Under the pieces are notes generated by a model. The model saw only the letters and a program-made list of their open reading frames with translations. It was not told where the DNA came from and did not search any database. The position numbers and the translations under genes were made by a program. Below, in pieces: positions 7,089 to 20,048 of a stretch of DNA of 64,000 nt. This DNA is from a virus. Position 1 is the stretch's first letter. Every line of letters begins with the position of its first letter. Where the stretch lies: the IMG/VR virus record IMGVR_UViG_3300029787_000003, positions 3,236-67,235 of that record; one strand, 5' to 3'.

Positions 7089-9713
7089 ATGGCCATAAAA
7101 TACGTTAGCGGTAAGACTAGAGAACTTAGAGTTGGTTTATCCAGTTATAGTGAGGGTAAAGCATCCTTACAAGTTATTGGAAATGTTGGTGTGGGAACTA
7201 CCAACCCACTTAGTGTGGCTAATCCTGCTAATACTTCAGTTATTAATGCTGGTATAGTAACTGCTAATAAATTGTTTGGTGATATAGTTGCTACTGGTGT
7301 AGGTATAACAAACTTAAATGTAACTGGTATATCAACATTTGGTGGAAATGTTTTTGTTGGTACAGGTGCGACAGTTGGATTTGGTACAAGTGCTTTCTTC
7401 CCAGACAATGCTGGTATATATTTCGGAGACGAAGAAGATTTAATTATATTTCATGACGGTAATCATTCTTACATAGATGATCAAGGTACTGGTAATTTAA
7501 AACTTAGATCAAATAATTTTAGAGTATCTAATGCAGATGAATCTAAACTATCTGCAACATTCCAAGCAGCAGGGGCTGCAGAGTTATATCATAATAATAA
7601 TTTAAGATTAACAAGTACAGATTCTGGTGTTGATGTAACTAATACTTTAAATGTTGTTGGTGTTTCTACATTTGGAAGTCTCATAGATGCTACCAGTGAT
7701 TTAAACGTTGGTGGTACATCATCATTTGTAAATGATGTAAGTGTTAGTGCAGCTGGTACTGTTGGATTTGGAACAACAGCATTCTTCAATAATGATTTAC
7801 GTATTGAGAGTCCACTTCCAAAAATATATCTAACAGATACAAACCATGATTCTGATTGGTATATCTCAAATAGTGATGGAACTATTATTTTTTATGACGT
7901 AACAACTACTAATACGAGATTTGAAATATATCCAGGTAATTCGCCAACAATTAGACCACGTATAAAAACTAATTATACTACTGATTCTATTTTTGAAGGA
8001 GAGACAACTCTTGGTGGGCATGGTCTCTCTCCTAGTCATTCCTTAACTGTTGCTGGTGTTTCTACATTTAATAGTTCAGTTGGTATTAATAGTCATCTTA
8101 ATGTAACTGGTGTTTCTACATTTTATGATGATGTAACCGTAGCTACTAGTAAGATAATAAATGTTGGTACATCTAATACTGTAAGACTTTTTAATAATGG
8201 TGCAATTTTTAGAATTCAAGGACAAGGAAATGCACTTCTTGCAATTGATACACCATCTTCATTAGTAGTGAATAGTGGTGCTACTAACGCTGCATTATTT
8301 AATCCAAGTTCATCTACAAAATTATATTTTGCTGGTACTGAAAGATTTGAAACATCTGGAATAGGTGTTAGTGTATATGATGCATTAACTGTAGCAGGTG
8401 TTTCTAGTTTCGTTGGTATATCAACATTCAATGGTAACGCAGAATTTCAAGGTAGTCTAACAACATTTGGAGGTACAGGCACAGGTGCAGGAAATGGTGG
8501 TGCACCATTTGCGATGTGGGCAAAAGCAAATAACTACTTATGGTTCTCTGATGACACAAGAATCCTAATGGGATTTGGTCAGACTTTAGAAATGAAGAGT
8601 GATGGTGAGTCAATAATTAGAGATACTAGAGCAGGTGTTGGTGGTACATTAGCAATTGGAGCAGATCATTTAATCCTTAGAAATAAGGATGGTAATGAAA
8701 AATATCTTGAAGCAACTGATAATGGCTCAGTTAAACTCTATCATGATTTTCTTCCTAGATTTGAGACTACTGGAATAGGAATTACAATTGCTGGTATTGG
8801 TAGTACAGCATACATCGAGGGCCCAGAGAACATAATAATAGATCCGCATCCATATGGTGTTGGTACTACTAGTGGTAACGTTTTCATTAGAGGTGATTTG
8901 TATGTAGAAGGTACAGAATTTATTGTTGATGTAGATAAGATAGAACTTGGTGACTTCCAAATTGGTATTGCAACAACTGCAGGTACTAATGTACTTCTTG
9001 ATGGTGCAGGTATTGGTATTGGTTCTACTAATATTAGAAAGTTTATTACTTGGAATAATGCAACCAATGCATTGATGAGTAGTGAGAACTGGAACCTAGC
9101 ATCAGGAAAACACTATGAGATTAATGGTACTGATGTACTAACTTCTGATACATTACAACTACTTGGAACGGGAGCACAAGTTCATTCACCTTCAAGTAAT
9201 ATATTAACTCTTAAGACGAATGGAGCTGAGAGACTTCGTGTAGATGCATCAGGTAATTTAGGTATTGGAACTGCTACACCAACAGACTCTGCTAATGCAG
9301 CAAATACATCAGTAACTTCTGCAGGTATTGTTACTGCAGTTGAATACTATGGTATATTCAAAGGATCTATCCCTGGCTTCTCAACTGTATTCTCATCAGG
9401 ACAAGGATTTTTTAGTGCAACTCCTGGTAGTGCACAGATTATAGATCAATTCGCATTCTCAACTCATGATTATAAAATTGCAGAATATACTTTACACTTT
9501 GTACATGCTAATGGAATACAAGCACAGAAATCCTTAGTCATGCAGAATAATTCTGTTGCATATTCAGAAGAGTATGGAGTCATGTATGATTCTGAATTAC
9601 TTGTTTCTATTGCTGCAACAGTAAGTGGTTCTAATGTTAATATCACTGCTACACCTGAAGCTGGTATCAGTGGAGTGACTACATTTAGATGGAGAAGGGA
9701 GGTTCAAACCTAA
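7089..9713 (+). CDS. Tail fibre protein with GIGTTNP-type repeats
   Basis: The 874-aa product is a typical fibrous protein with recurring VGVSTF, LNVTGVSTF, GIGTTNP and GIVTA segments of 30-60 residues. Blocks of short beta strands with HNG/DGTG turns follow (LIIFHDGNHSYIDD). The last 110 or so residues (QGFFSATPGSAQIIDQF to FRWRREVQT) form a distinct globular end with a hydrophobic core, a good candidate for a tip or trimerisation domain. Its stop overlaps the start of the protease gene (TAATG), implying coupled translation. No enzymatic motif is seen. Confidence 0.85.
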   Translation: MAIKYVSGKTRELRVGLSSYSEGKASLQVIGNVGVGTTNPLSVANPANTSVINAGIVTANKLFGDIVATGVGITNLNVTGISTFGGNVFVGTGATVGFGTSAFFPDNAGIYFGDEEDLIIFHDGNHSYIDDQGTGNLKLRSNNFRVSNADESKLSATFQAAGAAELYHNNNLRLTSTDSGVDVTNTLNVVGVSTFGSLIDATSDLNVGGTSSFVNDVSVSAAGTVGFGTTAFFNNDLRIESPLPKIYLTDTNHDSDWYISNSDGTIIFYDVTTTNTRFEIYPGNSPTIRPRIKTNYTTDSIFEGETTLGGHGLSPSHSLTVAGVSTFNSSVGINSHLNVTGVSTFYDDVTVATSKIINVGTSNTVRLFNNGAIFRIQGQGNALLAIDTPSSLVVNSGATNAALFNPSSSTKLYFAGTERFETSGIGVSVYDALTVAGVSSFVGISTFNGNAEFQGSLTTFGGTGTGAGNGGAPFAMWAKANNYLWFSDDTRILMGFGQTLEMKSDGESIIRDTRAGVGGTLAIGADHLILRNKDGNEKYLEATDNGSVKLYHDFLPRFETTGIGITIAGIGSTAYIEGPENIIIDPHPYGVGTTSGNVFIRGDLYVEGTEFIVDVDKIELGDFQIGIATTAGTNVLLDGAGIGIGSTNIRKFITWNNATNALMSSENWNLASGKHYEINGTDVLTSDTLQLLGTGAQVHSPSSNILTLKTNGAERLRVDASGNLGIGTATPTDSANAANTSVTSAGIVTAVEYYGIFKGSIPGFSTVFSSGQGFFSATPGSAQIIDQFAFSTHDYKIAEYTLHFVHANGIQAQKSLVMQNNSVAYSEEYGVMYDSELLVSIAATVSGSNVNITATPEAGISGVTTFRWRREVQT

Positions 9714-12700
9714 TGACTGAAGAAGAATATAATCAGCGAAAAGCATCCTTTGAAACACATAAAAACACATTAGAAAAAGAACCATCAGGATCAGATGTAA
9801 AAAAAGAATACTGGGTAGGTTGTAATTCAAAAGATGATTGGGATTTAATACATATACTGCTTCTTGAGGATGGTACTCTAGAAGATAACATTCCTAATGA
9901 TCATGTAGATTGTCCTAATGATTGTCGTCAAAGTGAGACTAGAGCTGTATATCTATTAACAGATACAGAAGTAACCGCACTTAAAAATCATCCACTAGTA
10001 AAATACGTACACATTAATACTTCAAAATATCCAGGAACTTATGCATCAAATCCTGATGATATTAAATCCGATGATCGAACTGATAGATATTCTTCTGCAA
10101 CAAAACATAAAAGAGATACATCAACTAACCAGTCAGATTATTTACCCACTTCACCAGACGCTACATTACTCAATAGAGGTTGTTATAATTTATTAAGACA
10201 TACAGAAAAGATTGATCCTTGGAGAGGAGGATTGTCTGCTACATATACAACTTCTGGAATTTATACTTGGACTTGTCCTGTTGGTGTAACGTCTGTTTCT
10301 GTAGTCTGTGTTGGTGGCGGTGGTGGAGGATATGATGATAATGGTGGAGGTGGTGGTGGCCTAGGATATAAAAATAATATATCAGTAACACCAGGTGTCG
10401 GTTATACAGTAGGGGTTGGTTCTTTTGGAAATAATAGTGCATACCCTGATAGTTATGGTGGAGATTCATATTTTATAAGCACATCTATTGTTAGAGGTGG
10501 TGGCGGCCATGGCGGTGGATATGCTGAAGAATATGGTGTACAATTACCTGGCGATGGTCTCGGTGGAACATTTACTGGAGATGGTGGTGGTAACGGTGGT
10601 AACGGTGGAACTGGTGGAGCATCTGGTGGCGGTGGTGCTGGTGGATATTCAGGAACTGGTGGAGCTGGTGGCGGCCCTACCCAAAATGGTAATGTTGGTG
10701 CTGGTGGCGGTGGCGGTGGCGGTGCTGGTGGTGAAGGATCTTATCCAAATAATTTCCTTGGTTCTTCTGGAGGTGGTGTAGGATTATTTGGAGCAGGTAC
10801 TAATGGTGCTGCTGGATCATATTCTGCTGGTGGAAATTCAACTGGTGCTACTGGAGGTTCGGGTGGTGGTACTGGTGCTGCTGGAGATTCTGGTTGTCCT
10901 TCAGCACAAAAAGGTGGAGACTATGGTGGTGGAGGAGGTTCAGGTAATAGAGGTAACTGTGCTGATGAAGGTGCTGTTGGTGCTGTAAGAATAGTTTGGG
11001 GAGGTGGTAGAGAATTCCCATCACAAAATGTTCAAGAAGTAGTGGCTGATTCAACTATACTTGATAGTGTGATTCCTCAATATGCAACAGGAAAAGATAT
11101 TGATGTAATTGTATGTGATGAAGATATGTGGTTTGGACATATTGAATTTATGAATCCAAGTGGTATAACAGACATTAAACAACAAGATAATGCAACTGCT
11201 GCAACCACTGCTGCACCAGCTAACTATGTTGGAACTAATGTTTTGAAGAGTGGATTTGCTACTTCATCTACAACTGGAATATGTGAATTGTTAGATATAG
11301 TTTTAGATGCTCCTTATTATATTGATAAGGAATGGTTTGAAGCAGATACAGGAAATAGATTAATGACTCGTTGGGATGGAACAAAAGTTCCAGTTGAATC
11401 TGTTGCAAGATCTTGGTGGTCTAATTCATCAAATAGGTCTGCTGCATTTTCAAGTGTAGGTACTGTATCAGTTCCTGCTGCATATACCAGAGCAAATAGT
11501 AATGGAAGTTATACTGCATATCATACTGGTGCTGGAAATCATGGAACTCCTTGTGCATCACAAACATATGGAAGACAATATGGTTGGGCTTATAATGCAA
11601 ACAAATGGTTCTTAAATCTTTATGGAACTAATAGTGTAGGACTTGAAGCAGGTTTTGATTTACAAAAAATATTTCATCAGAACAAACCAAATCGAAGTTC
11701 TGATAATACAAAAAATCCAACTGTATCAAGTAACAGTTGGGGATTGAGACAATCACCTACAACTTCTGGGTATTATTATTTCAGACAAGGTACAACTGGA
11801 GGAACTGGAACAAGTTACAGTAGTCTTCCTGCATTTATGAATTATTTTACGGGTGATGGATTAAATAGAAGAGCACCAGAATATGTTGATGGTCATGCAG
11901 CAATTACTGCTGGTGATGAGATGGTAAATGCAGGTGTTATCTTTGTATGTTCAGCTGGTAATAATAATCAGAAGCAAGTTCAAAGTAATCATGCAGATTA
12001 TAATAATTATTATGCATCAGGTTCAAGTGTAAACTATGTAAATGCAACAACTAATAGCATATATTCATTGATGAATTTTACACCCACTTATAATAGTTTG
12101 AATCGACAAGGGTTTCCAGCACAGATAGGTGTTGATAGAACCACTACTCCATATACTTATAAAACAATATCTATTGGTGCTTTAGATGATGATCATACTG
12201 CTGGAGGATTAGAACGAAAGGCATCCTACAGTAACATGGGTGATTGCACTGATTGTTTTGCTGCTGCAGATCAAACTCTATCTGCATCAGATGATAATTC
12301 TTCTCCAAGGTTTAATAGATATGATGCATACTATGATATTGGAACAACACAAGCTGTTGAATCAGAAGATAAAAACTTTAATGGAACTAGTTCTGCATGT
12401 CCTATAGCTGCAGGATTGATTGCTACTAAGTTAGAGACTAATAGAACTTGGACATATGCTGATGTTAAAAATTGGTTAGCAACTCAGGTTGAGGATACAA
12501 CAGATACATGGTTCTATAAGGGTACTGAAGCAACTACAGCAACTGATACTACTAACTGGAGTGACTATTATAATTTGCAGGGAGCTCAATTGAAAATTAT
12601 ATATGATGCACCATCTGCAGGTGGTGGCGGTGGAGGTGGTTCTGGTGGTGAAGAATCAGATGCAAAAGCATCAGTTACTGGCAGTAATCTCTCGATCAGT

Positions 12701-12721
12701 GGTAACTTCTCAATCACTTAA
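9713..12721 (+). CDS. Subtilisin-like (S8) serine protease with inserted glycine-rich adhesin domain
   Basis: The start at 9713 (TAATG overlap, preceded by GGGAGG) gives 1002 aa. Residues 1-170 include an inhibitor-I9-like prodomain stretch (AVYLLTDTEVTALKNHPLV). Residues about 176-432 are a self-contained glycine-rich domain. It opens with YTWTCPVGVTSVSVVCVGG, continues as GGxGG runs, and closes with GAVRIVWGGG, a domain type seen in phage adhesins. The catalytic domain follows: Asp469 in DVIVCDEDMWFGH, His610 in NHGTPCASQTYG, oxyanion Asn750 in SAGNNN, and nucleophile Ser893 in NGTSSACPIAAG. The triad is complete. A second Gly run and a SNLSISGNFSIT tail end the protein. No signal peptide is seen. 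It lies among fibre genes, so it is probably virion-associated. Cleaving host surface proteins or maturing fibres are both possible. Confidence 0.88.
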   Translation: MTEEEYNQRKASFETHKNTLEKEPSGSDVKKEYWVGCNSKDDWDLIHILLLEDGTLEDNIPNDHVDCPNDCRQSETRAVYLLTDTEVTALKNHPLVKYVHINTSKYPGTYASNPDDIKSDDRTDRYSSATKHKRDTSTNQSDYLPTSPDATLLNRGCYNLLRHTEKIDPWRGGLSATYTTSGIYTWTCPVGVTSVSVVCVGGGGGGYDDNGGGGGGLGYKNNISVTPGVGYTVGVGSFGNNSAYPDSYGGDSYFISTSIVRGGGGHGGGYAEEYGVQLPGDGLGGTFTGDGGGNGGNGGTGGASGGGGAGGYSGTGGAGGGPTQNGNVGAGGGGGGGAGGEGSYPNNFLGSSGGGVGLFGAGTNGAAGSYSAGGNSTGATGGSGGGTGAAGDSGCPSAQKGGDYGGGGGSGNRGNCADEGAVGAVRIVWGGGREFPSQNVQEVVADSTILDSVIPQYATGKDIDVIVCDEDMWFGHIEFMNPSGITDIKQQDNATAATTAAPANYVGTNVLKSGFATSSTTGICELLDIVLDAPYYIDKEWFEADTGNRLMTRWDGTKVPVESVARSWWSNSSNRSAAFSSVGTVSVPAAYTRANSNGSYTAYHTGAGNHGTPCASQTYGRQYGWAYNANKWFLNLYGTNSVGLEAGFDLQKIFHQNKPNRSSDNTKNPTVSSNSWGLRQSPTTSGYYYFRQGTTGGTGTSYSSLPAFMNYFTGDGLNRRAPEYVDGHAAITAGDEMVNAGVIFVCSAGNNNQKQVQSNHADYNNYYASGSSVNYVNATTNSIYSLMNFTPTYNSLNRQGFPAQIGVDRTTTPYTYKTISIGALDDDHTAGGLERKASYSNMGDCTDCFAAADQTLSASDDNSSPRFNRYDAYYDIGTTQAVESEDKNFNGTSSACPIAAGLIATKLETNRTWTYADVKNWLATQVEDTTDTWFYKGTEATTATDTTNWSDYYNLQGAQLKIIYDAPSAGGGGGGGSGGEESDAKASVTGSNLSISGNFSIT

Positions 12722-12749: not shown

Positions 12750-14885
12750 ATGGCAGATAAAGCATTTGGTGTAAAACAACTGAATATAATTGGTACTGGA
12801 ACCCCAACCATTGAAAGTCCTGGTGACTTGAGTTTGAAGGCTGGTACCGTAGCAATTAGTACCAACTTATATGTCGGTGGTATAACAACTCATATTGGAT
12901 TAACAACAACTACAAATGATTTGTATGTAGGATTGGGTTATACTATTCATGGAAATGGTAGTCAAATATATAAGGCACCATGGGGTCATGATGGTCTTTC
13001 TAATTATCTTAGCGATTATCAGGTAACAAATCCTGCAGTCGCAGCTTATGGTAGTTCAATAAGTGGTAATTGGAATGTTGTAGCAGGATATTTTGCAGCA
13101 TGTTGTGGTACTAGTATGAACTACAATGTAATTTTTGGTGAGAGTGCTGGAAGAAAATTAACAAGTGGTAGTAGAAATATTTTAATTGGATCAAAAACAG
13201 GTTGTGTTCTTGATGATGCTCAACAAAATATTATCATAGGATCCTGTGCAGGAGGTGCAGCAACAGGAAGTTATAATGTGGCATTAGGAATGTGTGCTTC
13301 ATGTAAAGTCACTGGAGATTATAACATTGCAATTGGCCTTCATGCTGCTGAAAATATTACAGCTTCTAATAGGAATATTGCTATAGGAAAGGATGCACGT
13401 AATGATGTTGGTGCTGGCGGTACGGATAATGTATTCCTAGGAACTTACGCTGGAGCAACAACTGCTGATCTTGAAAATGGTATAGGTATTGGCCCATCTG
13501 CTCATAGGAATGTGCAGGGAGATTGTAATGTTGCGATTGGTAATGAGGCAATGTTCGGTACAGCGATGGGAGAAGGTTATGATAACATTGCATTAGGTGC
13601 TCAAGCTGGATATGAAATTAATAATGGTTCAAATAATATATTTTTAGGAAAATGTTCTGGTGCAAAATCCACTAACGTACACCATAATATTTTTATGGGT
13701 TGTGGTACAGGATGTTGTACTACTGCTGGTTCATACAATGTATATCTTGGCCATGAAACTGGTAAATGTAATCAAGGTGGTGCTTGTAATGTTTACATTG
13801 GAAACAGAACAGGATTTGCTGCTACTGGTGGTGAACAAAACGTAGCCATTGGCCAAAGTGCAGGTTATAACAACAACATTGGTTCATATAATATTTTCTT
13901 TGGTTCTGGTGCTGGAACAAATAATGATGATGCAAATAAAAATGTTCTGATTGGCCAAAAAGCAGGTTTTTCTAATACCACAGGTCAATGTAATGTATTC
14001 GTTGGTGCTTATGCTGGATGTAAATCAGACAGTTCTGGTTCAAATAATTTATTAAATGTTGCTATTGGACATTGTGCAGGATTTTGTAATGCTGGTAATC
14101 GTAATATTGCTATAGGTTGGAAATCAGGTTGGAACAGTTCTTCTGCTGAGGATAATGTCGTCATTGGCTCTGAAGCTGGGCATTGTATTACGAATGGTGA
14201 CGACAATGTTCTTATAGGTATGAAGGCAGGATTCTGCCAGAATGGTGCAAATAGTAATGTTTTTATTGGATGTTGTGCTGGATATAATGCAGATAGTGGA
14301 GGTGCAAACGTTGCTCTAGGTGGTAATGCACTGGAACTAGTTCATGGTAATTATAATATTGGCCTTGGCTTTGCAGCTGGCGATGATATTACGACTGGTA
14401 GTAGAAATATAACAATTGGATGTAATGTTCAAGTACCTACTGCAGATGCTGATAATCAATTAGCGATTGGTTCTGGTTCTAATACTTGGATCAATGGTGA
14501 TAGTAATTTTGATGTAGGTATAGGAACTGCTACACCAACATCTAAGCTACATGTGGTTGGAGATTTTCTACTAACAGGTATTGCAACTGCTGTAGATTTT
14601 GATTCAACATCTGATATAAGATACAAGAAAAATATTCAAGCAATTGAAGATCCAATTTCTAAGGTTGTAAGTATTGAAGGTGTATCATTTAATTGGAAAG
14701 CAGATGATAGAGCTGCACTTGGTGTTATTGCTGACCAAGTTGAGACAGTATTACCAGAACTTGTTCGTGGTACTGATCCAAAGACAGTTAATTATAATGG
14801 TTTAATTGGATTATTAATTGAAGCGGTTAAGGAACAGCAAATTCAGATAGATAAACTGAACGAAAGAATTTCTAAATTAGAGTGA
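12750..14885 (+). CDS. Cysteine-rich repeat tail fibre with S74 intramolecular chaperone
   Basis: The 711-aa product has a short N-terminal fibre region. A long array (about residues 110-570) follows, of roughly 22-24-residue units with the core N-(I/V)-x-(I/L)-G-x-x-A-G (for example NIAIGLHAAE, NVFIGCCAGY). This is similar to the repeats of trimeric-adhesin-like phage fibres. I count about 22 Cys, nearly all at repeat turns (GDCNV, GKCSG). Then comes a GIGTATPTSKLHV linker and, from about residue 620, a peptidase-S74 chaperone domain: SDIRYKKNIQAIEDP, a FNWK strand, GVIADQVE and a C-terminal coiled coil. S74 domains fold trimeric fibres and usually cut themselves off just before the Ser of the SD motif. 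The sequence has its own late promoter. Confidence 0.88.
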   Translation: MADKAFGVKQLNIIGTGTPTIESPGDLSLKAGTVAISTNLYVGGITTHIGLTTTTNDLYVGLGYTIHGNGSQIYKAPWGHDGLSNYLSDYQVTNPAVAAYGSSISGNWNVVAGYFAACCGTSMNYNVIFGESAGRKLTSGSRNILIGSKTGCVLDDAQQNIIIGSCAGGAATGSYNVALGMCASCKVTGDYNIAIGLHAAENITASNRNIAIGKDARNDVGAGGTDNVFLGTYAGATTADLENGIGIGPSAHRNVQGDCNVAIGNEAMFGTAMGEGYDNIALGAQAGYEINNGSNNIFLGKCSGAKSTNVHHNIFMGCGTGCCTTAGSYNVYLGHETGKCNQGGACNVYIGNRTGFAATGGEQNVAIGQSAGYNNNIGSYNIFFGSGAGTNNDDANKNVLIGQKAGFSNTTGQCNVFVGAYAGCKSDSSGSNNLLNVAIGHCAGFCNAGNRNIAIGWKSGWNSSSAEDNVVIGSEAGHCITNGDDNVLIGMKAGFCQNGANSNVFIGCCAGYNADSGGANVALGGNALELVHGNYNIGLGFAAGDDITTGSRNITIGCNVQVPTADADNQLAIGSGSNTWINGDSNFDVGIGTATPTSKLHVVGDFLLTGIATAVDFDSTSDIRYKKNIQAIEDPISKVVSIEGVSFNWKADDRAALGVIADQVETVLPELVRGTDPKTVNYNGLIGLLIEAVKEQQIQIDKLNERISKLE

Positions 14886-14936: not shown

Positions 14937-17900
14937 ATGGCAATTAAGTTATCGGGCTCTACTATTATTGATGATAGTAGGCAGATTATAAATGCGGGTA
15001 ATGTGGGGATCGGAACCACAGACCCAACAGCAAAAGTAACAGCATCTAATACTGCAGTATTGGCTGCTGGTGTTGGTACTTTTCATAAAGTATATGGTGA
15101 TGGTAGTGAGTTAATCAATATTGGTTTAGGTGGTACAGATACTTGGAATCAAGATGCACAAGGTAACTTAGTTGCTGGTGTAGGTGCTGGTGTAGCGAGA
15201 GATGCAGATACTTGTAGTAACCTTTTCATAGGATGTTGTGCTGGTGCTGCTGTAAATTCAGGAGATAGAAATGTATTTCTTGGTTATTATGCAGCCAAAA
15301 GTACATTTACATCAGGTAATTGTAATGTTGCTATAGGTGATGAAGCAGGAAAATGTGGTAACGGTGATAATCAAGTCTTCTTAGGATCTTCTGCAGGATT
15401 CTGTATGAGTGGTGACGGTGGTGTGGCCATCGGTAAGAATGCAGGTCGTCATAAGACTAGTGGTATAGCTAACGTATTCATAGGTTGTTATGCTGGTTCA
15501 TGTGGTGGTACTGATGGATGTACTACTGTTGTTGGTGCTTTAGCAGGTAAATGTGGAGAAGGTGGTTGCAATGCAATCTTTGGATCTAAAGCAGGATTCA
15601 ATAATACATCAGGAGATTTTAATACATTCCTTGGATATCAGGCAGGTTGTTCTTCTACTTCTGGTTCAAATTTAGTTGCTATTGGTAATGCAGTTCAAGT
15701 TCCTTCACTAACTGGTGATACACAATTAGCAATTGGTGCTGGTGCTACCACTTGGATTACTGGTAATGATACTTTTAAGGTAGGTATAGGAACTACAACT
15801 TATACATCTTCATTAAATGTTCATAAAGACATTGGTGGTTATCAAGTTTTAAGTGCAGAAGGTGAAGGATCTACCACACTTGAAGTTAAAACTATATCTA
15901 AAACTGCAAAGCACAGATATCCTGGTGGTGGAGGTTCTAGTACTAGTGGATATGAAATAGATGGTGCTGAATCACCATACCTAACTCTAACACCAGGTAG
16001 AACATATAGATTTGAACAGTCTGATAGTAGTAATGATAATCATCCTTTAATATTTTATCTTGAAGCCAATAAGACAACAGAATATACAGCAGGTGTAAGT
16101 TATTATGCTGATGGTGCACAAGCAACCTCTGGTGCTTTTAGTTCCGCTTATAATTCAGCATCAGTTAGATATACAGAAATTACAGTAAGTGATGAGACAC
16201 CTTTGGTGCTTCATTATCAGTGCTATAACCATGGTTACATGGGAAATGCTATTAGTTTCCCTAATAATGTTCTCAATACAAACTATCAGTCAACCATCAG
16301 AGCAGACCTTCATGTTACTGGTATTGCTACTTTTGGTAGTGCATCACTTAAGTTAGATGGTACTAGCAATATTATTAATGTTGGAGCAGCATTAACTCTC
16401 GGACATTCACAAGGTATTCAATACCATACTCAGAATTTACATGCTACTGGTTTCGAAGTTAATCAAATTAATGCTTCAGGTATTACAACATTCACTAATG
16501 TAAAGGTTGGAACTGGTGCAACAATAGAATCGAATGGTAATGCAACTCTAGGTGTTCTAACAGCAACATCATTCCATGGTAGTGGTGCAGGATTAACTGG
16601 TCTTAATGTAAGATTCGATCCTGATTCACAAGAGAACTTATATGCTGGTACTAATGCTGGTGCAGATTCTGATTCTGATACTTGCTATAACGTTGCTATT
16701 GGTAAGAGTGCTGGTGCTCTTTTAAATTCAGGTGATTCTAACGTTTTCATTGGATGTAATGCAGCAAGACGTGCTACTTCTGGAACTGCTAATATTGCAA
16801 TTGGTCAAAATGTAGCAGCTGATGTTGGTAATACTGGTAATTGTCTAACTGGTAATTGCAATGTCATGTTGGGTACCTCAGCTGGTGGTAACCTTAGCAC
16901 TGGTTCATATAACCTATTGTTCGGATATGCTGCTGGTTTCTCTCTTAGTGGTAATTTTACTGGTAGTAATAATATCTTTATGGGTGGAGAGTCTGCCTCT
17001 CTTGGTGACATGTCTGGTAGTTGCAATATTGGATTAGGAAAATGTGTCTTCCAGAATATAGATTCTGGAGATGAGAACATAGCATTAGGTGTTAATGCTA
17101 TGGCTAATGGTACTGTAACTGGTAAACAAAATATAGTACTAGGTACATGTGCTGGTAACAGATTATCAAGTGGTTCTCAAAACCTCTTTTTAGGTGCTTA
17201 TGCAAACACTGGTTTACCACTTGTAACTGGAAACCATAATATTGCTATAGGTCATAGTGTATCAGTCGCAGATCATACTGCTAGTTGTCAATTAGCTATT
17301 GGTGTTGGTAATACTCATTGGATTACTGGTAATGCTAACTTCAATGTTGGTATCGGAACCACTGATCCAGATGCTCCTGTTGGTTCTGGAGTTACTGCTA
17401 AGTTATCGGCTGGTATTGTATCTGCCTTTACTTTCTATGGTGATGGTTCAAACTTAAGTGGTATTGTTGCTAGTGGACAAGGTATTCAAATTAGAGACAA
17501 TAATTCTTTGATTGGTACTGCTGGAACAATAAACTTTTCTACAAACTTATCCGTCTCTGCTATTTCTGGTGCTGCTGTTACTATAACCAGTCAAGGATTA
17601 TGGACTGCAGACGCACAAGAAAACTTATTTGCAGGAACTTGTTCAGGATATAATAGAGACTCAGATACCTGTTTCAATATTGGTATAGGTTATAGTGCAG
17701 GTGAAGCATTAAATGAAGGTGATGAGAATATCTTTATAGGTAGATGTTCAGGTACAAAATCAGTTACAGCTAGCAATAATGTTTTCTTAGGATCAAACAC
17801 TGGTGAATGGGGTATCCTTGGTGATGATAACTTTTTTGCGGGAACTGCTGCTGGTAGATGTAAACAGGGTGGTAGTGAAAACGTTGCATTAGGCCCATTT

Positions 17901-20048
17901 GCATTACTAGGTTCTTCAACACCAGGTCTTAACCAATCTAATAGTAATATTGCTATTGGAATGAGAGCAGGTGCACTAGCACAATCTGGTAGTTGTAATA
18001 TTTTGATAGGTAGAGATTCAGGTACCTGCATAACTACTGGATGTATGAACGTTGCAATTGGCCGTTCAACTGCTAGTGGGAGTGCTGTTACTGGTAATTA
18101 TAACGCTTTATTCGGAGAAAGTGCAGCTAAATGTTTGGCTGGTGGTGATCGTAATACAGTTATTGGCCGATGGGCAGGAAAATATTTAACAAATGGTAGT
18201 CAAAACACCATCTTAGGCCATAGTGCAGGTTGTTGTGTAACTAATGGTAATTGTAATACTCTCATTGGTAATGGTGCTGGTAAAAGAATTCAAACTGGTT
18301 TCAATAACATTACTATAGGCCGTGAAGCTGGTCAAAATATAACGAATGCTAGTAATAATATCGTCATTGGATGTCAGGTTGATACTACATCAGACGGTGC
18401 AAGTGGAGAATTAAGAATTGGTGCTGGTTCAACCATATTAATTAGTGGTGAATTCGATGGTGGAACTGTAACTCTTGCTGGTCTTGCAACTGCTAATCCT
18501 ACTGCTGGTATTCTTAGCACTAGAGATTTCCATACAGATCAACTTAGTGTAACTGGTCTCTCTACCTTTACTGCTAATGTAAGTATTGCTTCAACCTTAT
18601 TTGTGAAAGCAAGAGCAGGTTATGGGAAAGATCAATTAATTGTTGGTGATGAAGCCACATATAATGAACAAATAAAATTATGGCGACAGAGTAATGGTTC
18701 AGTAATAGATTTTACTCATGATGATGACCCTAATGCAATTAGATCGGCCGATATTTTATCACTTAGAGCTAGTTACACAACCAGCACAGCAAATACTTTC
18801 AATGGTTTTGGTATTGATATTGATGATTCTCAAATTTTTCCATCCCATAATTATAGACCCAATTTAGGAACTCCACTCAACAACTTTGGTAACATATACG
18901 CAACTGGTATTATTACTGCTGCAGCTATTGGTGGCCCTGTTGGTATTATCACATACTATGGTGATGGTTCTAAACTACAAGGTGTTGCAGGTGGTCTTAA
19001 TGTTCAGGATGAAGGTGTTACATTAGCAACACAAGCAACCACTCTTAACTTTGAAGGTTCTGGTGTTAGTGCTACTGGTACTGGTGCAACTAAAACTATT
19101 ACTATCTCTGGTGGTGGTGGATCGACTGGTGCTTGGTCTCCTGATGATGATCAAAACTTATTTGCTGGTACTAGAGCTGGTAGATGTTTAGATGGTACCA
19201 ATGGTTGCTTCAACGTATTCCTTGGATGTAATGCTGGTCAATGTACTGATTCTGGTGCTGAGAATATATTTGCAGGTAAGGGTGCAGGTTTTGGTAACCA
19301 AAGTGGTGATTATAATATTTTCTTAGGCTCTTATGCAGGTAAATGCAATACTGTTGGTTATGGTAACGTATTGTTTGGTAAAGAAGTTGGATTCTGTTTG
19401 GATACAGGTATTCATAACTTCTATGCACTAGAAAGAGCAGGTAGTAATGCTTATAATGGTTGTGATAACATTGCAATTGGTAGATGTGCTGGTTATGAGA
19501 TGCAATCTAACGACAATGTTCTTTTAGGCCGAAATGCTGGTAGAGGACAAGTCTTTGGTCATCGAAATGTTGTTATCGGTATGGATGCTGGTAGGTGTGG
19601 TGAACGTGGTGATAATAATGTAATGATTGGTTGCAATGCAGGTCGTTGTAACCAAGGAACAGGTAACGTATTCTTAGGCCATAATACTGGTTCTGCTGTT
19701 ACTAGTGCTAGTGGTAATGTTGTTATTGGATGTAATGTATCACTTGCATCTTCTGTTATAGATCATCAACTAGCAATTGGTGTTGGTAATACAAACTGGA
19801 TCACTGGTATTGAGAACTACAACCTCGGTATCGGAAGTGATAGACCAAGAGTTGCTCTTGATGTTGCTGGAACGGTAGCAACAAGAACGTTCTTCCAGAA
19901 TGAAGTTGAATTGCGTAGTAGTGAAACCTTCCCTAAAGAAGGTGGCCCAGTAAATGGAGGTGTATTTGGCCCATATACTATTGGAACTGGTGCTTGTCTT
20001 ACTATCGGGCCTGGATCTACATTTACTATCATTGGAATACCTGAATAA
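14937..20048 (+). CDS. Very long cysteine-rich repeat tail fibre
   Basis: The 1703-aa product is built from four large blocks of N-x-x-(I/L)-G-x-x-A-G repeats (near residues 75-275, 570-790, 890-1180 and 1450-1650). Blocks typically open with a phrase like DAQENLFAGT, followed by DSDTC, and close with QLAIGxGxxxWITGN; most are followed by a GIGTT linker. Between blocks are YGDGSxLxGI modules found in other fibres of this window. I count about 46 Cys, mostly at repeat turns, far more than in other fibres here. One inter-block domain (about residues 320-450) contains HxPLIFYLE and ends in VLHYQCYNHGYMGNAI, which resembles a cupredoxin-like fold seen in phage fibres. No chaperone domain is visible at the C-terminus (FTIIGIPE). 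Confidence 0.87.
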   Translation: MAIKLSGSTIIDDSRQIINAGNVGIGTTDPTAKVTASNTAVLAAGVGTFHKVYGDGSELINIGLGGTDTWNQDAQGNLVAGVGAGVARDADTCSNLFIGCCAGAAVNSGDRNVFLGYYAAKSTFTSGNCNVAIGDEAGKCGNGDNQVFLGSSAGFCMSGDGGVAIGKNAGRHKTSGIANVFIGCYAGSCGGTDGCTTVVGALAGKCGEGGCNAIFGSKAGFNNTSGDFNTFLGYQAGCSSTSGSNLVAIGNAVQVPSLTGDTQLAIGAGATTWITGNDTFKVGIGTTTYTSSLNVHKDIGGYQVLSAEGEGSTTLEVKTISKTAKHRYPGGGGSSTSGYEIDGAESPYLTLTPGRTYRFEQSDSSNDNHPLIFYLEANKTTEYTAGVSYYADGAQATSGAFSSAYNSASVRYTEITVSDETPLVLHYQCYNHGYMGNAISFPNNVLNTNYQSTIRADLHVTGIATFGSASLKLDGTSNIINVGAALTLGHSQGIQYHTQNLHATGFEVNQINASGITTFTNVKVGTGATIESNGNATLGVLTATSFHGSGAGLTGLNVRFDPDSQENLYAGTNAGADSDSDTCYNVAIGKSAGALLNSGDSNVFIGCNAARRATSGTANIAIGQNVAADVGNTGNCLTGNCNVMLGTSAGGNLSTGSYNLLFGYAAGFSLSGNFTGSNNIFMGGESASLGDMSGSCNIGLGKCVFQNIDSGDENIALGVNAMANGTVTGKQNIVLGTCAGNRLSSGSQNLFLGAYANTGLPLVTGNHNIAIGHSVSVADHTASCQLAIGVGNTHWITGNANFNVGIGTTDPDAPVGSGVTAKLSAGIVSAFTFYGDGSNLSGIVASGQGIQIRDNNSLIGTAGTINFSTNLSVSAISGAAVTITSQGLWTADAQENLFAGTCSGYNRDSDTCFNIGIGYSAGEALNEGDENIFIGRCSGTKSVTASNNVFLGSNTGEWGILGDDNFFAGTAAGRCKQGGSENVALGPFALLGSSTPGLNQSNSNIAIGMRAGALAQSGSCNILIGRDSGTCITTGCMNVAIGRSTASGSAVTGNYNALFGESAAKCLAGGDRNTVIGRWAGKYLTNGSQNTILGHSAGCCVTNGNCNTLIGNGAGKRIQTGFNNITIGREAGQNITNASNNIVIGCQVDTTSDGASGELRIGAGSTILISGEFDGGTVTLAGLATANPTAGILSTRDFHTDQLSVTGLSTFTANVSIASTLFVKARAGYGKDQLIVGDEATYNEQIKLWRQSNGSVIDFTHDDDPNAIRSADILSLRASYTTSTANTFNGFGIDIDDSQIFPSHNYRPNLGTPLNNFGNIYATGIITAAAIGGPVGIITYYGDGSKLQGVAGGLNVQDEGVTLATQATTLNFEGSGVSATGTGATKTITISGGGGSTGAWSPDDDQNLFAGTRAGRCLDGTNGCFNVFLGCNAGQCTDSGAENIFAGKGAGFGNQSGDYNIFLGSYAGKCNTVGYGNVLFGKEVGFCLDTGIHNFYALERAGSNAYNGCDNIAIGRCAGYEMQSNDNVLLGRNAGRGQVFGHRNVVIGMDAGRCGERGDNNVMIGCNAGRCNQGTGNVFLGHNTGSAVTSASGNVVIGCNVSLASSVIDHQLAIGVGNTNWITGIENYNLGIGSDRPRVALDVAGTVATRTFFQNEVELRSSETFPKEGGPVNGGVFGPYTIGTGACLTIGPGSTFTIIGIPE

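Follow-up and report, generated by a model that had tools for sequence, protein, structure and literature searches.

A subtilase gene in a cyanophage fibre cluster

The DNA analysed here (the window) is a stretch of 64,000 nucleotides, bases 3236-67235 of a 152 kb IMG/VR virus record (IMGVR_UViG_3300029787_000003, or G000), and its gene at 9713..12721 encodes an S8 subtilase of 1002 amino acids (aa) into which a glycine-rich module is inserted. All features described below lie on the plus strand. The record carries a psbA-type D1 gene near its left end, outside the window (G000:C1:4-759), and its relatives are T4-like cyanophages. Thus, the contig is that of a cyanophage, a phage that infects marine cyanobacteria. 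Upstream of the protease lies a fibre gene (7089..9713) whose product has a conserved C-terminal region of ~130 aa (TPEAGISGVTTFRW), and a fibre gene of this kind stands ahead of the protease in most cyanophage-type loci. Downstream lies a second fibre gene (12750..14885), which encodes an S74 chaperone and a conserved N-terminus, MADKAFGVKQLN...GTPTIESP. The first-pass annotation, made from the letters of the window, proposed that translation of the protease is coupled to that of the preceding fibre, and the junction agrees. The ATG of the protease (9713) shares one base with the TAA of the fibre gene (TAATG), and a GGGAGG Shine-Dalgarno-like site (9697..9702) sits within the end of the fibre gene, 10 nt before that ATG. 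An alternative in-frame ATG at 9689 is without such GGGAGG spacing. Moreover, a short overlap with the preceding gene is also found in S-SSM7, S-SCSM2R, P-SSM2 and S-SCSM1.

The catalytic domain (11033..12592, residues ~441-960) carries every S8 signature at the position first claimed for it and in canonical motifs: Asp469 (11117..11119) within VCDEDMWFGHIEF, His610 (11540..11542) within NHGTPCAS, the oxyanion Asn750 (11960..11962) within CSAGNNNQ, and Ser893 (12389..12391) within FNGTSSACP. Pfam Peptidase_S8 (PF00082) was matched with 44.6 bits against a cut-off of 21.8 (E 1.5e-11), and the best homologue model was phrog_9158 (E 4e-82, residues 446-968). Structure prediction, which had been suggested as a check, gave a subtilisin fold nearest the proteinase K-type subtilases. 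The AlphaFold model of the full protein had a predicted local distance difference test score (pLDDT) of ~90 or more over most of the prodomain and catalytic domain, and Foldseek matched it to the proteinase K-like structures 1s2n/2b6n (E 3e-10, target template modelling [TM] score ~0.7). A phmmer search of PDB with either the full protein or the module as query returned nothing useful.

Relatives were gathered from 40 annotated-phage records and from IMG/VR, in which 412 stretches encode relatives and 80 were kept; loci in this set are numbered with an L. A subtilase on a phage might be a catalytically dead fold that serves as a scaffold, and homologues that lack the catalytic residues would then be common. 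Instead, 86 non-redundant open reading frames (ORFs) kept His in 86/86, Asn in 86/86, Asp in 85/86 and Ser in 84/86, and the gaps come from two ORFs that are truncated and from one whose Asp was misaligned but can be read in the sequence (IQDSG). The tetrad of D, H, N and S is thus kept in 84/84 complete non-redundant relatives, which excludes a dead fold for the family, and we reject that explanation as highly improbable for the window protein. The conservation supports the prediction of an active protease.

A glycine-rich cap within the mature enzyme

How the module is joined to the enzyme depends on where the mature enzyme begins. The protein opens with a prodomain (9800..10021, residues ~30-103) that is modelled as beta-alpha-beta-alpha-beta with pLDDT of ~90 or more. 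Pfam Inhibitor_I9 was matched weakly in 6/17 family members (best E 0.005), and weak PDB profile matches include subtilisin prosegments. We assign it, with moderate confidence, to the I9 type. There follows a processing or linker region (10022..10162, residues 104-150) with YPGTY conserved in the family consensus; this region is the probable zone of autocleavage, and we infer that the cleavage site lies near YPGTY.

The next segment, LNRGCYNLLRHTEKIDPW (10163..10228, residues 151-172), is the N-terminal arm of the mature enzyme. Through the P-SSM2 homologue it aligns to WGLDRIDQRDLPL of aqualysin and to WGLGRISHRS of 3f7o, and the P-SSM2 sequence itself, QWGLYRHSHRS, lies just ahead of the insertion point and matches the mature N-terminus of aqualysin (WGLDRIDQRD). 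Thus, LNRGCYNLLRHTEKIDPW corresponds to the WGLxR segment in aqualysin and the proteinase K-like enzymes. Because this motif precedes the module, the module occupies a loop of the mature enzyme, ahead of the strand bearing the catalytic Asp. The first-pass annotation was therefore right that a glycine-rich domain with the stated frame exists and wrong to place it between the prodomain and the catalytic domain: the alignment to aqualysin and proteinase K types rules out that position and puts the domain inside the mature N-terminal arm. It follows that removal of the prodomain should leave the adhesin on the enzyme.

The module itself (10229..11032, residues ~173-440, ~265 residues) has a frame in which YTWTCP begins at residue 184 and GAVRIVW at 423, and it includes an RxFPSxN tail. 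It matched Pfam Gly_rich_2 with 26.3 bits against a cut-off of 24.3 (E 9e-6), as did 25/27 aligned module members, and phrog_4474 over residues 176-443 (E 4e-46). In the module alignment the frame is conserved and the interior is rich in indels. Elsewhere among phages the module mostly caps the C-terminus of stand-alone proteins of 290-450 aa, where it spans xYTTxGTYxWxxPxGVTSVSVV to GAVRIxW and ends 14-20 residues further, after RxFPSTN. The protease carries the complete cap, including the tail GGREFPSQNV, and so the insertion took in an entire adhesin end.

A model of the module built with an alignment of 27 relatives reached pLDDT 86. Its top PDB match was the fibre of cyanophage Pam3 (7ypx; E 8e-6, prob 1.00, TM ~0.5), followed by the Bxb1 tail tip and then the ALK/LTK glycine-rich domain. 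The Pam3 fibre has a glycine-rich domain with a hypervariable tip that is proposed to recognise the host (PMC9608196). That domain, in gp24, is the closest solved fold, and Gly_rich_2/phrog_4474 is the sequence family of the module; unlike the window protease, however, gp24 carries it as the tip of a trimeric fibre and not as part of an enzyme. The Gly_rich_2 match above cut-off, the Pam3 fibre fold and the exchange described below uphold the first reading of the domain as adhesin-type. The gp38 adhesin of Salmonella phage S16 has a polyglycine distal receptor-binding tip (cited in PMC9608196) and is likewise glycine-rich, but its frame differs and it is absent among the PDB matches listed for the module. 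Two further searches were uninformative. The sole PDB matches of the module profile, Ika/Tako repeat proteins, were weak and are taken as chance, and tblastn with only the module as query gave no match in phage records, probably owing to the low-complexity filter.

Exchange of the module, and other accessory domains in the family

The module is rare in the S8 family, in which it is seen only in the window and in L010. A search of phage proteomes for the same domain order, also among the checks first suggested, found that the order does recur, in a single other IMG/VR contig; a search for the module-protease junction at further loci returned L010's contig only. The window and L010 share ~91-94% DNA identity over most of a 17 kb stretch of the fibre cluster. 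The module core (10325..10978), however, has no blastn match to L010, even as its flanks are 91-92% identical in nucleotides. At the protein level the flanks of the two proteases are 91-93% identical and the modules 55%. Moreover, differences at fourfold sites are 0.12 and 0.06 in the flanks and 0.45 in the module, and synonymous divergence (dS, NG86) is 0.15 and 0.10 in the flanks and 0.72 in the module. Synonymous change in the module is thus ~4-8 times that of the flanks, which argues for replacement by recombination and not merely for selection on residues. We conclude from this comparison that the module has been swapped by recombination, as in the neighbouring fibres. Indeed, the window module is as near to stand-alone adhesins (55% to L106) as it is to that of L010 (49-54%). 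The break points of the exchange coincide with the two conserved frame motifs, and therefore the motifs may act as homology arms.

Other main tracts without a blastn match to L010 lie at 7569-8766 in the upstream fibre and at 16715-17289 and 18068-18951 in a fibre of 1703 aa. These tracts are probably receptor-binding regions that were exchanged alongside the protease module. Among named relatives the closest, AG-345-F15 (L003), is without the insert. A stand-alone glycine-rich adhesin gene, cut by the end of the record, lies at L003 14899-15297, two genes downstream of the AG-345-F15 S8 gene. That gene may represent the donor type for the insert.

The module might instead be structural, a spacer, an oligomerisation element or a virion anchor, in a protease that would still act at the host surface. 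Glycine-rich stems form compact lattices that are usable as spacers, and most relatives do without the module. What makes a purely structural module improbable is that it comprises the whole adhesin cap, tail included, and that the interior, not the frame, is exchanged between close relatives, as expected for receptor recognition. The window and L010 are in effect a natural module-swap experiment, and the role of the module is directly testable with the pair.

Exchange of one module is set within a family that carries other additions. The T4-GC 292/phrog_9158 family includes P-SSM2 PSSM2_297, S-SSM7 SSSM7_232 and S-SCSM2R 203, which share with the window the prodomain and catalytic architecture, the position behind a fibre gene and the MADKxFGVK-type N-terminus downstream; unlike the window protein, to which they are ~26-44% identical, they are without the glycine-rich module. 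The S-TIM54 protein (UYE97265.1, 2140 aa; L001) resembles the window protein as an S8 enzyme with a large foreign domain ahead of the catalytic core. Its insert differs, however, in being a BD-FAE/carboxylesterase domain (L001 12310-13380) between the prodomain and the mature N-terminal motif, with immunoglobulin (Ig) repeats behind the enzyme. SSCSM1_228 of S-SCSM1, encoded in a cluster of virion-protein genes, likewise couples S8 to domains of carbohydrate-binding type, and it differs from the window protein (~26% identity) in that these accessory domains are lectin-type (LamG) and C-terminal. L003 and L012 have cupredoxin-like domains within two different loops of the catalytic domain; the domains show a His...Cys..His..Met pattern, as in type 1 copper sites, and weak Pfam matches to Cupredoxin_1/Copper-bind were found in some of them only. 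L016 has a second S8 domain within one protein, and L041 has a large insert (residues ~120-360) ahead of the mature N-terminal motif that matched nothing in Pfam or PHROG. Together, the accessory additions suggest that the enzyme is exposed on the particle.

Several observations stand beside these. A cupredoxin-like domain also occurs at window 16041-16241 (residues 369-435 of the 1703-aa fibre) and in many cyanophage tail fibres. Two S8 genes are adjacent or close in L022, L024, L025, L030, L031, L033, L035, L040 and L066. A cellular origin of the family was considered and rejected, as 84,980 genomes held 5 relatives (four contigs of metagenome-assembled genomes and one Pelagibacteraceae assembly) that are probably phage contigs.

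The window protease ends in a glycine linker and a short beta-like motif (VTGSNLSISGNFSI; 12593..12718) that recurs in many relatives. The motif (12659-12718), roughly xxFxSGxGLxFxGxxIxI, is shared by many S8 relatives and is present even where Ig-like extensions precede it; a regular expression matched it in 28/86 relatives, a pattern too strict for a useful count. It is possible that the motif is a virion-docking tail.

The fibre cassette and the role of the protease

Location of the gene inside a fibre cluster, an early claim that the relatives corroborate, is evident from the fibre genes on both sides in the window and, in most loci, from a fibre gene immediately ahead of the S8 gene. Among the 83 loci with upstream sequence, the upstream fibre ends in a TPExGISGxTTYRF-type sequence in ~50 and in a MIYNTTxNKFQG-type sequence in 21. 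The downstream gene begins MADKxFGVKxxNxxGxxGTPTIES in 48 loci, as counted by blastp, since a regular expression undercounted. These recurrent neighbours make the S8 gene part of a conserved fibre cassette.

Evidence for the protein in particles comes from annotation. The S-SCSM1 record labels its S8 homologue "baseplate wedge subunit (virion protein)". The same "(virion protein)" label is on the nearby ORF213 and ORF214 and is absent from head completion, baseplate hub and other structural genes. The S-SCSM1 paper names ORF213 and ORF214 as proteins that mass spectrometry found in CsCl-purified particles (PMC9602691). Because the label is on genes so named and absent from other structural genes, we read it as mass spectrometric detection, and by that reading of the record label, not of the mass spectrometry table, the S-SCSM1 homologue would be in virions. 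The S-TIM54 protein is annotated as virion structural.

We propose, at a probability of about 0.52, that the window encodes a virion-borne subtilase of the tail fibre or baseplate that is tethered by a receptor-binding tip and cuts host-surface proteins during adsorption. The subtilase would be produced together with the preceding fibre and probably mature by removal of its I9-type prodomain. A complete Pam3-type glycine-rich cap, inserted in a loop on the surface of the mature enzyme, would be retained after processing. The tip would offer a receptor-binding surface and tether the protease at the host envelope, and we infer that the tethered enzyme would there cleave host surface proteins during adsorption. 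Exchange of the cap by recombination between the frame motifs could then retarget the protease as the host surface changes. In short, the virus probably grips and trims host-surface proteins with this protease.

Several points weigh against the proposal. Binding or cleavage data were found for no family member. Most members are without the glycine-rich module, and thus the core role of the enzyme is independent of it. The S-SCSM1 homologue is only ~26-27% identical and is without the module. The full-length model gives the module low confidence, which we attribute to the presence of the module in only two rows of the alignment. Finally, the Pam3 domain rests on a trimeric base like that of tumour necrosis factor, and a lone copy in a protease loop might not fold and bind by itself.

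The main rival to a host-surface protease is one that matures fibres. During assembly it would cut proteins of the phage fibre or baseplate (one candidate is the upstream fibre, at its conserved C-terminal domain), and the module would be a fibre-docking or accessory part. The strict position behind a fibre gene and the overlapping start would fit such an enzyme, as would the conservation of that C-terminal domain in 49 searched loci while the remainder of the fibre diverges. The same S8 family, however, also stands behind fibres with the unrelated MIYN-type end, and thus no single fibre end is the substrate. Moreover, module exchange and the added esterase and lectin domains suit a host-facing role better, and the S-SCSM1 homologue bears the virion label. 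We therefore consider fibre maturation unlikely, and note that it and action at the host surface are not mutually exclusive. Less probable still is an enzyme outside the virion that breaks down host proteins within the infected cell or contributes to lysis. General degradation is a role that subtilases can have, and the virion label is on a distant homologue only. The position in the fibre cluster, the adhesin insertion, the Ig and LamG fusions in relatives and the S-SCSM1 label itself all make such an enzyme very unlikely.

More tentatively, the host-surface protease may belong to a wider class of docking proteases, each with a constant tail-borne subtilase core and exchangeable host-facing modules at three or more insertion points. 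The modules, be they glycine-rich adhesin, esterase, cupredoxin-like, Ig or lectin domains, might recombine in step with the fibres while the enzymes remove proteins from the host surface at adsorption. That cyanophage fibre clusters contain S8 genes was previously known, and such genes had been annotated. Sullivan et al. noted that two cyanophages have an S8 peptidase gene but gave it no function (PMC3037559), and our literature search found no study on the function of this S8 family. Both halves of the window protein are thus of known kinds, and what is new is their fusion inside the mature enzyme and the exchange of the module.

Enzymes that degrade polysaccharides are common on phage tails. 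To our knowledge, few tail-borne proteases that target the bacterial surface have been well characterised. If our proposal is true, the enzyme with which cyanophages digest proteins of the host surface has an aiming part that is exchanged in the manner of a fibre tip, and this would have consequences for how cyanophages track resistant Synechococcus and Prochlorococcus. Ultimately, the proposal offers a role for hundreds of unannotated genes, the relatives encoded on the 412 IMG/VR stretches.

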